A stretch of DNA of 42,081 bases from Gemmatimonadota bacterium (GTDB lineage: Bacteria > Gemmatimonadota > Gemmatimonadetes > Gemmatimonadales > GWC2-71-9). This document shows, in pieces, positions 28,888-42,081 of this stretch. Positions within the stretch are counted from its first letter, which is position 1. Each line of letters begins with the position of its first letter. The DNA lies in NCBI GenBank assembly GCA_022566515.1, contig JADFIT010000009.1, forward strand, positions 1 through 42,081, read 5' to 3'. The notes below the pieces were generated by a model. It was not told the origin of the DNA, did not search any database, and saw only the letters and a list, made by a program, of their open reading frames with translations. Position numbers and translations under genes: made by a program.

Positions 28888-29099
28888 GCCCTCCCCGCAT
28901 CGACGCCGGCCGGTTCACTAGTACGGCGTGTCACAAGTACGGTGACATGTTACCGCAATTCCGGCCCGGAGTACTGCCCGGCACCGGTTTCCGCCGGAGC
29001 TGTGCAAAGGCCCTGCCCTGAGACGTCATACAAGTGAACCCGCGGAGGGACGCGGCCATCCGTCGCCCTTCCCGCCCGCTCAACAAAGGAGTGTTCAAG

Positions 29100-38430: not shown

Positions 38431-39187
38431 CAGGCTTGTGCGTCAACTGGGCGAGAACGGCGTGCTCACGCTGCGGCTCAACCGGCCGGACAAGCGCAAC
38501 GCCATCGACACGCTCATGATCGACGCGTTGCTGACCGAACTCGAAACCGCGGATCTGGATTCGACCGTCAACGTGGTGGTGGTCCGTGGGGCGGGGAAGG
38601 ACTTCTGCTCAGGAGCCGATCTGGTCGAGTTGCTCGCGTCGGCCGACCGGACGCCGGAGGAGAACGCCGCGGATGCGGCCCGGCTCGGCGACGTGTTCAT
38701 ACACATGCGGGATCTTCCCAAGCCGGTGGTAGCCGTGGTGCAGGGTAGGGCGCTGGCTGGCGGATGCGGATTGGCCACCGCCTGCGACATCGTCCTGGCC
38801 CACGAAGACGCCGTGTTCGGATATCCCGAGGTCCAGCGTGGCTTCGTGCCCGCCATGGTCATGGCCATGCTTACGCGTGCGGTCGGGGAAAAGGTCGCGT
38901 TCGACCTGGTCGCTACCGGACGCATGCTTCCGGCCTCCGAGGCGCTGGCCATAGGGTTGATATCACGTGTGATGCCGTCGGCGAACTTCGAAGCGGACGT
39001 GGCTAGCGTTGTCGAGCAGCTGGCCTGTGCGGGTTCGACGACCCTCGCCCTCATCAAGAAGCAGTTATACGAATTGGACGGCCGGTCGTTTCCCGAAGCC
39101 GTCAAGCTCGGCTCCGAGGTGAATGCCATAGCCCGCAGCACGCCGAGTTTCAAAGAAGCCGTCGCACGGTTCTTGAGCAAAGAGTGA
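38423..39187 (+). CDS. Enoyl-CoA hydratase/isomerase family protein
   Basis: This 254-residue crotonase-fold enzyme probably hydrates an unsaturated acyl-CoA. TLRLNRPDKRNAIDTLMID, GAGKDFCSGADLVELLAS (first oxyanion strand) and VQGRALAGGCGLATACDIVL (second oxyanion loop) are clear. YPEVQRGFVPAMVMAMLTRA contains a Glu at the usual second-residue position. It resembles methylglutaconyl-CoA hydratases, and the neighbouring carboxyltransferase and AtuA genes would fit such a role, but the substrate cannot be set from sequence alone. The GTG at 38423 overlaps the AtuA C-terminal gene by 8 bp. Confidence 0.92.
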   Translation: MSDRLVRQLGENGVLTLRLNRPDKRNAIDTLMIDALLTELETADLDSTVNVVVVRGAGKDFCSGADLVELLASADRTPEENAADAARLGDVFIHMRDLPKPVVAVVQGRALAGGCGLATACDIVLAHEDAVFGYPEVQRGFVPAMVMAMLTRAVGEKVAFDLVATGRMLPASEALAIGLISRVMPSANFEADVASVVEQLACAGSTTLALIKKQLYELDGRSFPEAVKLGSEVNAIARSTPSFKEAVARFLSKE

Positions 39188-39191
39188 ACCG

Positions 39192-39518
39192 ATGACACTC
39201 ATCCCCTGTCCGGAGTGCGATCGCCCGGTGTCGGATATGGCGTCGGCGTGTCCCAGCTGCGGCTTTCCTGTTGTGGCAGGCATCAGACACGCGGTGGACC
39301 AAATCACGGACGATGAGAAAACGAAATCGGCAAGGCAGCAACATGCGGCCGCAAAACTGCAGAGTTGGGGCGAGCGGTACAAGAGTTCCCGTCAGGTGGA
39401 TCCTCTCACCCGACAAGGGGACACATTCCTGGATCGCCATTGGAAGGGGATTCTGTTCGTCATCGTGACGATCATCCTGATCCTTCAGTTGACCTGGCTG
39501 CTGTCGATGTATCGGTGA
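39192..39518 (+). CDS. Small zinc-ribbon membrane protein
   Basis: This 108-residue protein starts with a zinc ribbon (IPCPECDRPVSDMASACPSC, two CxxC pairs). The middle is polar, charged and probably helical, and one C-terminal membrane segment (GILFVIVTIILILQLTWLL) ends it. It is likely tail-anchored with the ribbon in the cytoplasm. Function unknown. It begins 4 bp after the hydratase stop and is the last gene before the recQ 5' duplication, whose first copy starts 25 bp after its stop. Confidence 0.75.
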   Translation: MTLIPCPECDRPVSDMASACPSCGFPVVAGIRHAVDQITDDEKTKSARQQHAAAKLQSWGERYKSSRQVDPLTRQGDTFLDRHWKGILFVIVTIILILQLTWLLSMYR

Positions 39519-39543
39519 GAGGTGGGGAGTATCACACGCGTCA

Positions 39544-39692
39544 GCGTTGATCTGATCCCTGCTGCAATATTTCGGTAAAGCACCGCCGGCGTCGCGTCGT
39601 CATCGTTGTGCCGTGTGTACCGTTGAACGTTCACTCTCCGCGGCGCGCAGAGTGCTGTCTCGGGTGTGGCGGTATGACGACTTCCGCTAGGC
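39544..39692. repeat. 149-bp direct repeat, copy A (dead copy of the recQ 5' region)
   Basis: This segment aligns without gaps with 40809-40957, with about 17 mismatches by hand count (roughly 89% identity). It starts GCGTTGATCTGATCCCTGCT and ends CTTCCGCTAGGC. Copy B contains the beginning of recQ; copy A ends in a stop at the matching place. The two copies bracket 1116 bp of accessory DNA. Confidence 0.9.
39613..39690 (+). pseudogene. recQ 5' fragment in repeat copy A
   Basis: Read in the recQ frame from a GTG at 39613, this gives VCTVERSLSAARRVLSRVWR then YDDFR and a TAG (39688-39690) exactly where the intact recQ has TGG for Trp. Homology to recQ ends one codon later. It is therefore a 25-codon remnant of a second recQ allele. 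Confidence 0.75.
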
Positions 39693-39725
39693 TGCAAGGG
39701 CCCGGGTCGCCACATTAGGCTCTCT

Positions 39726-39757
39726 ATTCACCGCTGAGACCGCCGAGGGCGCAGAGA
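39726..39757 (+). repeat. Inverted repeat, left arm (32 bp)
   Basis: The left arm starts ATTCACCGCTGAGACC and ends CGCAGAGA. It matches the reverse complement of 39866-39897 at 26 of 32 positions. The arms flank the GxxExxY relic. Confidence 0.75.
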
Positions 39758-39852
39758 TGAACGGGGTGAATGAGCTTACTAACGAAATCATCGGGGCTGC
39801 GATCGAGGTGCATCGTACACTTCACAATGGGCATCCGGCGCCTCGTCCATGA
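39757..39852 (+). pseudogene. GxxExxY-family gene remnant
   Basis: An ATG at 39757 begins MNGVNELTNEIIGAAIEVHR and continues TLHNGHPAPRP before a TGA. This is the typical N-terminus of GxxExxY proteins (about 125 residues, PD-(D/E)XK nuclease-like fold), which normally continue with a GxG.LE..Y.. segment. Only about 25 family residues remain before the frame departs and stops, so the gene is truncated and non-functional. Confidence 0.75.
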
Positions 39853-39865
39853 GCTTCCAGAATAA

Positions 39866-39897
39866 TCTCTGCGATCTCCGCGTGCTCGGCGGTGAAT
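39866..39897 (-). repeat. Inverted repeat, right arm (32 bp)
   Basis: The reverse complement starts ATTCACCGCCGAGCAC and ends CGCAGAGA, pairing with the left arm at 39726-39757 (26 of 32 positions). With the arm on the other side, it makes a miniature-element-like unit of about 172 bp (39726-39897). Confidence 0.75.
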
Positions 39898-40055
39898 ACG
39901 TCACCGCAATTCGGGCCGGGAGAACTAGTCATAGGCGCGTTTCCAAAAAACCGAAAGGTCGGCCACCATGGCTGTTCCAGAGTGGCAGAAAAGGTCTTCG
40001 AGAAGATTCGGCAGGCGCAGCTGAGCGCCCATTCCGCTAGGCCGTTGACGAGCCC

Positions 40056-40313
40056 ATGCCAGAGATCTCACGTTTCCTCGGTATCGTAGTCGGCATGTTC
40101 TACAGCGAACATGGGGTCGCGCACTTCCACGCCGTCTACGGGGAGCAGGAAGTTTCGGTCGAACTGGAATCTGGGGCGGTTCACGGTACTTTTCCTACAC
40201 GAGCGCTCCGACACGTTCTTGAATGGGCGGAACTTCACAAGGCAGAATTGTTGGCCAACTGGGATCTGGCCCGGCAGGGCAGGCCGCTCAATCGGATTGC
40301 TCCCTTGGAGTGA
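40056..40313 (+). CDS. DUF4160 domain protein
   Basis: This is an 85-residue protein of the DUF4160 family. MPEISRFLGIVVGMFYSEHG then VAHFHAVYGEQEVSVELESG is the characteristic start, with the conserved HFH-like core, and LRHVLEWAELHKAELLANWD the usual C-terminal helix. Function is not established. DUF4160 genes are very often paired with DUF2442 genes, and the pair is suspected to be a toxin-antitoxin-like module. The DUF2442 gene starts 4 bp after this stop. The ATG at 40056 gives the normal length. Confidence 0.88.
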   Translation: MPEISRFLGIVVGMFYSEHGVAHFHAVYGEQEVSVELESGAVHGTFPTRALRHVLEWAELHKAELLANWDLARQGRPLNRIAPLE

Positions 40314-40317
40314 CGCT

Positions 40318-40563
40318 ATGGACTATCACGTTGTAGAGGCCCGGTACGTTGGCGGACATGTCGTGTGGCTTCGGTTTCGCGATGGCACGGTCGGAGAGAT
40401 TGACCTCGGCCCGGCGCTGCGTGGCCCCGTTTTCGAGCCACTCCGTGATCCGGATTACTTCAAGACGTTCACGGTTCATCCAGAGTTTCACACGCTCGTC
40501 TGGCCGAACGGCGCTGACTTTGCACCCGAGTTTCTCCACGACACCGTGCGGGTGACGGCCTAA
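40318..40563 (+). CDS. DUF2442 domain protein
   Basis: This is an 81-residue protein of the DUF2442 family. VVWLRFRDGTVGEIDLGPAL, FEPLRDPDYFKTFTVHPEFH and TLVWPNGADFAPEFLHD are the conserved blocks. Many members have this small size and lie next to DUF4160, as here. One partner may neutralise the other, but this is inference. The start at 40318 is four bases after the DUF4160 stop, so the two form an operon. Both genes appear intact, unlike the GxxExxY relic beside them. Confidence 0.88.
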   Translation: MDYHVVEARYVGGHVVWLRFRDGTVGEIDLGPALRGPVFEPLRDPDYFKTFTVHPEFHTLVWPNGADFAPEFLHDTVRVTA

Positions 40564-40808
40564 CAATAAGGATTGTATCCGGAGTGCTCATGAGCCGTGA
40601 GCCTGAGCGGCGTTGGTGCATGGCTCGAGGTTGAGGTCAGGGTCGCCCTACTCCCCGGGCATAGGGATCACTCCAGCTGGTAGCTGTCGGGCATCCCCAG
40701 ACGGGTCATCGTGTTGAGAATCCTGCGCCCGAGCTGCGCCGCCACACCGGCGTGTATCAACAAGTTGGCGAGAGAGGCGCAAACACGACGGCGATACCGC
40801 TGTAGGGG
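40564..40808. other. Right part of the accessory island, no recognised gene
   Basis: Between the DUF2442 stop and repeat copy B there is no plus-strand gene that I recognise. The only open frame of note is the doubtful minus-strand ORF at 40668-40868. No terminator hairpin with a T run is seen after DUF2442. Confidence 0.4.
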
Positions 40809-40868
40809 GCGTTGATCTGGTTCCTGCTGCAATATTTCGGTAAGGTACCGCCGGCGTTGCGTAGTCAT
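40668..40868 (-). CDS. Doubtful 66-residue ORF divergent from recQ
   Basis: The frame starts MTTQRRRYLTEILQQEPDQR and has a hydrophobic middle (SLANLLIHAGVAAQLGRR). I do not recognise it and no ribosome binding site is seen. Its first 20 codons lie in repeat copy B; the same codons in copy A read MTTRRRRCFTEILQQGSDQR before a stop. Of six codon differences, five change the amino acid, which argues against selection on this frame. Confidence 0.15.
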   Translation of the reverse strand: MTTQRRRYLTEILQQEPDQRPLQRYRRRVCASLANLLIHAGVAAQLGRRILNTMTRLGMPDSYQLE

Positions 40869-40957
40869 TGTTATGTCGTGTGTACCGTTGACCGCTCACT
40901 CTCCGCGGCACGCAGAGTGCTGTCTCGTGTGTGGTCGTATGATGACTTCCGCTGGGC
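40809..40957. repeat. 149-bp direct repeat, copy B (intact recQ 5' region)
   Basis: This is the partner of 39544-39692, aligned without gaps and with about 17 mismatches. It covers the upstream region and the first 26 or so codons of recQ, ending at the CGC-TGG-GC of the open frame. Sequences outside both repeat copies do not match in direct orientation. Confidence 0.9.
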
Positions 40958-42081
40958 CCAGCGACGCGTGATACTCGGCGCGCTGCGCGGCAGGGATGTG
41001 CTGGCCGTGCTGCCCACCGGCGGGGGGAAATCCCTCTGCTTTCAGGTGCCTGCCCTCGTGCTTCCGGGCACGACGATCGTCGTCTCGCCCTTGATTTCAC
41101 TCATGCAAGATCAGGTGTCCGCACTGCAACGTCGCGGTGTTGCGGCGGAGTATCTGAGCAGCTCTCAAGAGCCACACGAGCAACGCGAGGTGTGGAAAGC
41201 CTACACCGAAGGACGGCTGAAGCTCCTGTATGTGGCACCGGAGAGAATGGCACAGCTCATCGCCCGCAAACCCGATGCGCCAACCCCACTCCTTGCCATC
41301 GATGAGGCACACTGTATCAGCGAGTGGGGTCACGACTTTCGGCCTCACTACCGGGCTCTGGGCCAACATCGGATCGCTCTGGGACGTCCGCCGACCATCG
41401 CGCTCACCGCGTCCGCCACGCCTATGACTCGCACCGACATCATTCGCCTCCTCCGGATGCGCCGGCCCGTGGTGGCCCTCAACTCCTTCGACCGGCCCAA
41501 CCTCCACTTCAGCGTGAGCCGTGCTACAAGTCAGATCACGCGTTTGCGCGAAACAGCCTCGTTGCTCAAGCGGCATCCGGAAACAGCCATCGTGTACGTT
41601 CCAACGAGAAACCACACCGACGGAGTGGCGGCCGTTCTCCTGCGGTGGGGATTCCGGGCCGCGCCGTATCATGCCGGGTTGCCGCCCAAGGCTCGTACAG
41701 AACTCCTCGAGCAGTTCTTGGACGGCCGAGTGCGCGTCATGGTCGCGACCAATGCCTTCGGCATGGGCATCGACAAGAGCGACGTTCGCTTGGTTCTCCA
41801 CCTCGGCATTCCCACGCGCCCGGAGGCCTACTACCAGGAAGCCGGCAGGGCAGGGCGCGACGGTAACCAGTCCTGGTGCCGCCTCCTCTGGCTCAAGGAG
41901 GACTTGCGGCTGGCCACCGCGATGGCTCTGAAGCCCGGTACGCCGAATGTGAGCCAATCCCCCGATCACCTTCGGGCGAAGAAGGCAGGGCTGAAGACGA
42001 TGCGGGAGTACGTGCTGAGCCGGCGGTGTCGGAGGAGAATCCTGCTGGGTTACCTGGGTGAAGAGATCTCGACCTGTACCG
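40878..42081 (+). CDS. recQ: RecQ-type ATP-dependent DNA helicase (runs off the window)
   Basis: RecQ unwinds DNA in the 3'-5' direction during recombination and repair. About 401 residues are visible. The ATP site is VLAVLPTGGGKSLCFQVPAL (about residue 50), the Walker B and aromatic loop read LAIDEAHCISEWGHDFRPHY, and motif VI is YYQEAGRAGRDGNQSWC. The end reaches the zinc-binding region (RRCRRRILLGYLGEEISTC), so the rest of that domain and any HRDC domain are outside. The GTG at 40878 is one of several possible starts (others at 40917 and 40929). It is chosen because codon differences between the two repeat copies are mostly silent from about this point onward. The 5' end lies within repeat copy B. 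Confidence 0.93.
   Translation, partial: MCTVDRSLSAARRVLSRVWSYDDFRWAQRRVILGALRGRDVLAVLPTGGGKSLCFQVPALVLPGTTIVVSPLISLMQDQVSALQRRGVAAEYLSSSQEPHEQREVWKAYTEGRLKLLYVAPERMAQLIARKPDAPTPLLAIDEAHCISEWGHDFRPHYRALGQHRIALGRPPTIALTASATPMTRTDIIRLLRMRRPVVALNSFDRPNLHFSVSRATSQITRLRETASLLKRHPETAIVYVPTRNHTDGVAAVLLRWGFRAAPYHAGLPPKARTELLEQFLDGRVRVMVATNAFGMGIDKSDVRLVLHLGIPTRPEAYYQEAGRAGRDGNQSWCRLLWLKEDLRLATAMALKPGTPNVSQSPDHLRAKKAGLKTMREYVLSRRCRRRILLGYLGEEISTCT

Follow-up and report, generated by a model that had tools for sequence, protein, structure and literature searches.

The window, a stretch of 42,081 nucleotides from a Gemmatimonadota contig, contains a short ORF that opens like a GxxExxY protein, soon breaks off and lies between inverted repeats. 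This raises the question whether the locus is a miniature form of a mobile element and whether intact GxxExxY genes, to which to our knowledge no role has been assigned, are themselves enclosed by ends of this kind. In the literature searched, which left subscription journals mostly outside, we found no description of arms around GxxExxY genes, and those portions of the papers naming GxxExxY that were available did not address flanks, arms or hairpins.

A GxxExxY remnant between inverted arms

In the window, the left arm occupies positions 39725-39758 on the plus strand and consists of TATTCACC followed by the units CGCTGAG, CGCCGAG and CGCAGAG, which are separated by AC and GG. The right arm, inverted and on the minus strand at 39865-39898, likewise begins with TATTCACC and continues with CGCCGAG, CGCGGAG and CGCAGAG, spaced by CA and AT. 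Each arm is 34 nt long, the two are 82% complementary, and 106 nt lie between them. They score 38, and none of 500 shuffled versions of the 225-nt stretch exceeded 27 with the same scorer; the inverted arms claimed in an earlier note on this DNA are real. Three-unit arrays of the pattern CRCNRAG occur only twice in the 42-kb window, namely as the two arms, and did not appear in 50 shuffles of the window.

The first 25 or so codons of the enclosed ORF (39757-39852, plus strand) correspond to the start of a GxxExxY gene (NELTNEIIGAAIEVHRTL), as had been proposed. When compared with PF13366 (PDDEXK_3), the ORF matched the first 21 positions with an E value of 0.093 and 13.5 bits, the cut-off being 22. 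As this match lies under the curated cut-off, we take the ORF, judged from its sequence, to be a remnant of a GxxExxY gene and not a member gene of the family (TIGR04256; PF13366), of which the intact genes are members. The last 12 codons of the gene, MGIRRLVHELPE followed by a stop codon, are also present within the arms in a second frame (39827-39865, plus strand), and G000:C230, a sister copy, has retained LGLLINGNVKQRAMGIRRLVHELPE, about 13 codons more of the C-terminus than the window copy; for comparison, the C-terminal consensus of GxxExxY proteins is GLLINFNV..L..GI. This C-terminus and the sister copy make the tie of the window copy to GxxExxY firmer than the PF13366 score. Since the start and the C-terminus both lie inside the arms, the ends of the gene have been kept and its middle has been deleted, and the idea of a miniature unit formed by internal deletion was borne out for what is a multi-copy derivative.

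The limits of that unit had to be redrawn. Positions 39726-39897, originally taken for the whole, are its inner part, and the repeated unit, one copy of a family dispersed in the genome, extends from 39704 to 39928 (plus strand), with CTAG at its right end (39925-39928) and perhaps a left end at the CTAG of 39687-39690. The window copy would be a dead derivative that has lost the middle of its gene and sits inside a CTAG-ended repeat multiplied in this genome. By eye, a second repeat of about 140 nt (GTTGATCTG..TCCTGCTGCAATATTTCGGTAA...) is seen at 39548-39700 and 40815-40950, flanking the unit. Beside the repeat, a DUF4160 gene and, behind it, a DUF2442 gene (40056-40563) make up a small two-gene unit.

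Arms around intact GxxExxY genes

The genome that harbors the window has no intact GxxExxY gene (TIGR04256 was without match there), and the gene is likewise absent from G001 of the same genus. It is present in G002 and G003, two further members of the genus, and the intact genes at the same-genus loci L032 and L034 lie between inverted arms of the same build as those of the window, in other letters. Arms were assessed on a wider scale at 80 intact loci, which are the best 80 of 559 confirmed hits and therefore a sample that leans to the query type. They span Chloroflexota, Planctomycetota, Bacteroidota, Acidobacteriota, Verrucomicrobiota, Proteobacteria, Cyanobacteria and others. The motif test required that two coding-strand units precede the gene and that the same units follow it in inverted orientation; with a motif formed on previously read loci, 29 of the 30 own-phylum loci among them, and then applied to the 80 loci, arms were found at 64 of 80 and at none of 358 displaced flanks. 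A motif-free score of at least 34 was reached by the flanks of 52 of the 80 loci and by 3 of 358 flank pairs taken at displaced positions on these contigs. Within the phylum of the window 19 of 30 loci passed the arm score, a count that uses all 30 and includes L069, which is the same place as L029. PIN-domain genes, which served as a small, multi-copy control, had arms by score in 0 of 30 cases.

The earlier note had proposed looking for ATTCACCGC...CGCAGAGA arms on intact genes and had named intact genes without arms as a refuting result. Most of the intact genes tested do have such arms, the letters given being one version of a variable unit, and 16 of the 80 intact loci are armless by the motif test. 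The unit is directed: in 49 of the 52 scored arms, the 5' side has it in coding-strand orientation. The best repeat spacing is 8, 9 or 10 in 48 of the 52 scored loci, and the outer end of the arm follows the consensus TT(C/A)ACCRCRGAG.

Six GxxExxY copies in G263 have six unlike arm sequences, the two arms scoring at least 34 against each other in five copies and 28 in the sixth; in G095, all five copies fetched had an arm score below 34. As far as can be told from sequence, the arms belong to the element and not to the genome. Mapped onto a tree of 89 proteins, arm type requires 30 changes, compared with at least 38 in 200 shuffles, and the G+C content of the host may add to this agreement. 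The tree holds 89 of 117 proteins (with scored arms); L096 and L119 were left out because of internal stop codons. L119 is the sole archaeal locus (Methanophagales), and its arms score 35 around a GxxExxY frame with an internal stop codon.

GxxExxY genes were found in 103 of 295 genomes, and one site is filled or empty within a single genus (see below), in keeping with the patchy presence suggested at the outset. Eight plasmid records contain a GxxExxY relative, two of which were read, and phages gave no match to the one GxxExxY protein used as query.

The GxxExxY protein

Three intact genes were tested and all belong to the TIGR04256/PF13366 family of PD-(D/E)XK proteins. The conserved residues comprise an invariant G..E..Y, followed by D and E.K, and the active-site pattern D..E.K is kept; a Q...Y motif is present that we take to be the one of RecB and Cas4 nucleases. 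The predicted structure (pLDDT 94.8) has its best structural match in SSO0001, presumably a Cas4 protein, with Z 10.1 over 97 residues and an rmsd of 3.1. The next matches were 3ijm, which is restriction-endonuclease-like (Z 7.9), Hjc 1gef (Z 7.2) and Cas4 4r5q (Z 7.0), and Z values near 7-8 or below 8 perhaps reflect only a common arrangement. The predicted fold is thus similar to Cas4/RecB-like and Hjc-like nucleases; the difference is that by sequence GxxExxY has no relative among solved structures. Foldseek with the model yielded no match at E < 0.001.

Presence, absence and re-use of an insertion site

With the intact element of G227 and its flanks as query, an element was found behind the same gene at one site in G227, G213, G333 and G338. 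The same site is empty in G071, G111 and G016 (genus g14) and in G024 of the same family, where 15-40 nt take the place of the 510-550 nt of filled sites, and no hairpin is left at these four empty sites. G336 of the same genus has 93 nt there, containing GATTCACCGCCGA, which are perhaps the remains of a lost element; for the remaining genomes, the matches listed covered mostly the left flank only. On the right, the extra DNA at the filled site stops where the right arm stops; on the left, it includes about 67 nt beyond the arm. The proposal that the arms are the mobile boundary fits the right end of this site and is not supported for its left side, nor for the window family, which shares sequence beyond the arms.

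The proteins at this site, that of G017 included, are 50-70% identical, and the arms are unlike between species. For two of the five site proteins, L030 and, narrowly, L274, the closest relatives are elements at other places, which suggests that the site was probably used more than once. In Bacteroides, two GxxExxY genes behind radA are 54% identical and have unlike arms. Among 21 GxxExxY copies from five genomes (G277, G218, G263, G095 and G256) none were near-identical, the maximum being 72% over at least 300 nt, and recent movement of the gene was therefore not seen. At the few sites that were read, the insertion lies immediately downstream of a stop codon. Neither the filled/empty site nor the fetched hairpins described next show a target-site duplication.

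Dispersed hairpins without a gene

In G244 and G257, 37 of the 40 places fetched are arm-arm hairpins of 65-92 nt that are like the arms of the GxxExxY gene of these genomes and enclose no gene, and the agreement outside their arms fades over 15-25 nt. Six congeners without a close copy of the G244 element had no arm matches beyond the gene region. G359 and G360 do have close copies of this element (92% and 81%), yet they show 6 and 7 arm matches in all.

Of the strict three-unit pattern, the 103 genomes that encode GxxExxY contain 1,437 occurrences, and the 192 that lack the gene contain 48. At least 10 arrays are present in 24 of the former and in none of the latter (Fisher p 1.5e-12, Mann-Whitney p 2.7e-15), and the tie between arrays and gene is also seen within family f2 (p 0.005). 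The tie of array number to the presence of GxxExxY is a correlation; 54 of the 103 genomes with the gene have no arrays, and 17 of the 192 without it have at least one (G000 nine, G071 six). A backward control pattern occurred 240 times in genomes with GxxExxY and 27 times in those without, 196 of the occurrences being in two genomes. In G170 (143) and G070 (53), both of which have GxxExxY, the backward pattern is another repeat with a 9-bp period and different letters. Compared by eye with the arms of the genome's own gene, the scattered arrays match clearly in G244, G257, G204 and G039, and the match is unclear in G108 and G112.

Clean empty sites for the hairpins of G257 were sought in G244 and G359 with ten queries, and none was found among the four counterparts read in G244. 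Two of these, L370 and L372, have different hairpins, a short CACAGAG palindrome occupies L378, and L380 contains a different insert of about 250 nt with inverted ends of its own. Of the 24 hairpin loci fetched from G257, five could be aligned for more than 1 kb to one of the 16 loci fetched from G244, and at a single orthologous site a CGCAAAG hairpin stands opposite a CACAGAG hairpin. Both G244 and G359 are rich in other hairpin types as well (CGCGGAG and CACAGAG, including nested ones; flank of L367, L370, L372).

Outer ends of the window family

Positions 39700-39920 of the window matched their own genome 35 times; some of these matches are fragments of a single place, and ten are about 100 nt or longer. 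Besides the window copy, there are nine long copies with 76-95% identity. The copies remain alike for about 20-90 nt outside the left arm and 30 nt outside the right arm; several end in CTAG, and several start with CTAGTACTGCG and finish with GGAGAACTAG. Several copies have CTAG at each end, which may represent either the end of the element or its target. The outer ends also occur alone, as 60 nt without arms, at G000:C187 and at 28918-28977 of the window (plus strand; CTAGTAC...GGAGTACTGC); the latter has neither arms nor gene and comes nearest to an empty outer repeat. At L255 (C88), two arms without a gene lie mid-way in such a CTAGTAC-type pair of ends. Taken together with the copies that contain a gene remnant, these loci form a series from ends alone via ends with arms to ends with arms and remains of the gene. 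One family copy, L222 (G003:C195), has a CTAG end that overlaps the TAG stop codon of the preceding gene.

G029 contains a second relic family, in which GxxExxY remains within arms are enclosed by other terminal repeats, GTAGTGGGTCAGTTT and AACTGACCCACTAC. When the window copy was searched against 81 genomes of its family, no copy with an intact gene was among the matches listed, and an intact parent of the window family was found neither there nor in its own genome. The outer ends of the window family look like ordinary transposon ends. Since the shared sequence reaches the CTAG beyond the arms, and since G029 has outer repeats as well, other enzymes may do the copying there, and the window family may be copied by an enzyme other than GxxExxY.

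A candidate mobile element and competing explanations

The finding of intact genes between arms of the same build, together with gene-less arm pairs scattered in genomes that carry the gene, makes GxxExxY look like the engine of a previously undescribed mobile element. We consider it probable that GxxExxY genes are the coding part of a nuclease-driven mobile element of about 0.5 kb whose hairpins are moved in trans. In such an element, a single gene for a PD-(D/E)XK nuclease of about 130 amino acids would lie between a left arm and its inverted counterpart, each built from a few CRCNGAG units with a period of mostly 8-10 bp, and a short stretch would precede the left arm. We infer from the arrangement that GxxExxY binds, cuts and moves the DNA: the nuclease would recognize the repeats within the arms as its end sites, would act on DNA and not on an RNA stem, and would cut at the ends, with the unit moving into intergenic DNA, and the gene-less arm-arm hairpins would be the same ends moved in trans, as REPINs are by RAYTs. 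If GxxExxY genes were mobility genes, their role would be named and a large set of unexplained intergenic palindromes would gain a source. It would also mean that an element is moved by a small stand-alone PD-(D/E)XK nuclease, which is testable at the bench, and small ORFs running through repeats would deserve a re-check in annotation.

The REPIN/RAYT systems provide the closest parallel in several respects. Here too, a single-gene unit lies between inverted short repeats (64 of 80 GxxExxY loci by motif, 52 of 80 by score), the same repeats occur as dispersed palindromic pairs without gene (37 of 40 places in G244/G257), and high repeat numbers are seen only with the gene (at least 10 arrays in 24 of 103 versus 0 of 192 genomes, a correlation). 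In contrast to RAYTs, GxxExxY is a PD-(D/E)XK nuclease and not an HUH tyrosine transposase (Y1_Tnp), its arms consist of CRCNGAG units in tandem, with a period of mostly 8-10 bp, that are unrelated to the REPIN repeats, and the element is found across many phyla. By analogy, the GxxExxY element would work like the RAYT system without being a member of it. A REPIN/RAYT-like system with another enzyme appears to be the simplest reading that joins the directly observed features, i.e. the arms and their spread across phyla, the polarity of the units, presence and absence at one site, the dispersed hairpins and their tie to the gene.

For the window family itself, a different origin is about evenly balanced in our judgment and is compatible with the nuclease-driven element: the family may be a MITE of a CTAG-targeting transposase (IS type), in which a GxxExxY element landed, lost its middle and is now only cargo multiplied by that transposase. 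MITEs are short, non-coding and multi-copy with inverted ends and an internal gene deletion, as is this family. CTAGTAC...GTACTAG-like ends outside the arms are common to several copies, the ends occur without arms (28918-28977 and G000:C187) and, at L255, with arms in their middle, the genome lacks an intact GxxExxY gene, and G029 repeats the arrangement with GTAGTGGGTCAGTTT...AACTGACCCACTAC as outer repeats. The left ends of several copies, that of the window included, fall short of a clear CTAGTAC end, however, and a MITE is silent on the arms of intact genes in other phyla and on the tie to hairpin numbers.

The hairpins could instead be independent repeats that act as landing sites, with GxxExxY genes as passengers that insert there or are swapped by recombination between arms. 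Unlike elements in one intergenic site behind the same gene, with proteins 50-70% identical, the pair of genes behind radA in Bacteroides, and the CGCAAAG and CACAGAG hairpins at one orthologous site all fit this hot-spot reading. We nevertheless regard it as unlikely, since the four empty sites retain no hairpin, the left and right arms of one element resemble each other but not the arms found on further elements of that genome, PIN genes, which are likewise small and multi-copy, lack arms, and large numbers of arrays occur only together with GxxExxY. An even poorer prospect is that the arms act as RNA, be it as terminators, as processing stems or as an excised intervening sequence as in 23S rRNA. 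Inverted arms could indeed form an RNA stem, and the four-helix-bundle genes of 23S rRNA intervening sequences have inverted arms too (25 of 30). Mismatches between the arms showed no excess of the G.U type (185 versus 209 of the A.C type, p 0.25) in a count of the 80 loci plus 35 others mostly chosen for arms already seen, 97 of these 115 having passed the score, and this lack of bias makes a role at the DNA level fit better than an RNA stem. No Rfam family at gathering score covers the element in ten loci, and the two Rfam matches in the window at 39000-41500 are both under their cut-offs. The RNA explanation was disfavored on these two grounds.

Arms around a second gene family

The genes of 23S rRNA intervening sequences (PF05635) encode a four-helix bundle, a fold unrelated to that of GxxExxY. 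Like GxxExxY genes, they are small and patchy and have inverted arms of short tandem units. At the loci L163-L192, arms were found in 25 of 30, with units mostly of 7-8 bp; the letters of these units, GTCAGGA, TATCAGG and CTGTTGG, are different from the CRCNGAG of GxxExxY. One paper terms the 23S intervening sequence of Coxiella, with its S23 ORF, a selfish element (PMC4990558). More tentatively, and with rather more doubt than confidence on our part, GxxExxY may represent a class of mobile element across the bacterial tree, in which a stand-alone Cas4-like PD-(D/E)XK enzyme reads CRCNGAG ends and to which PF05635 genes with their 7-bp arms would be a parallel system, both families driving elements that make palindromes. 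The genome of the window contains four PF05635 genes.
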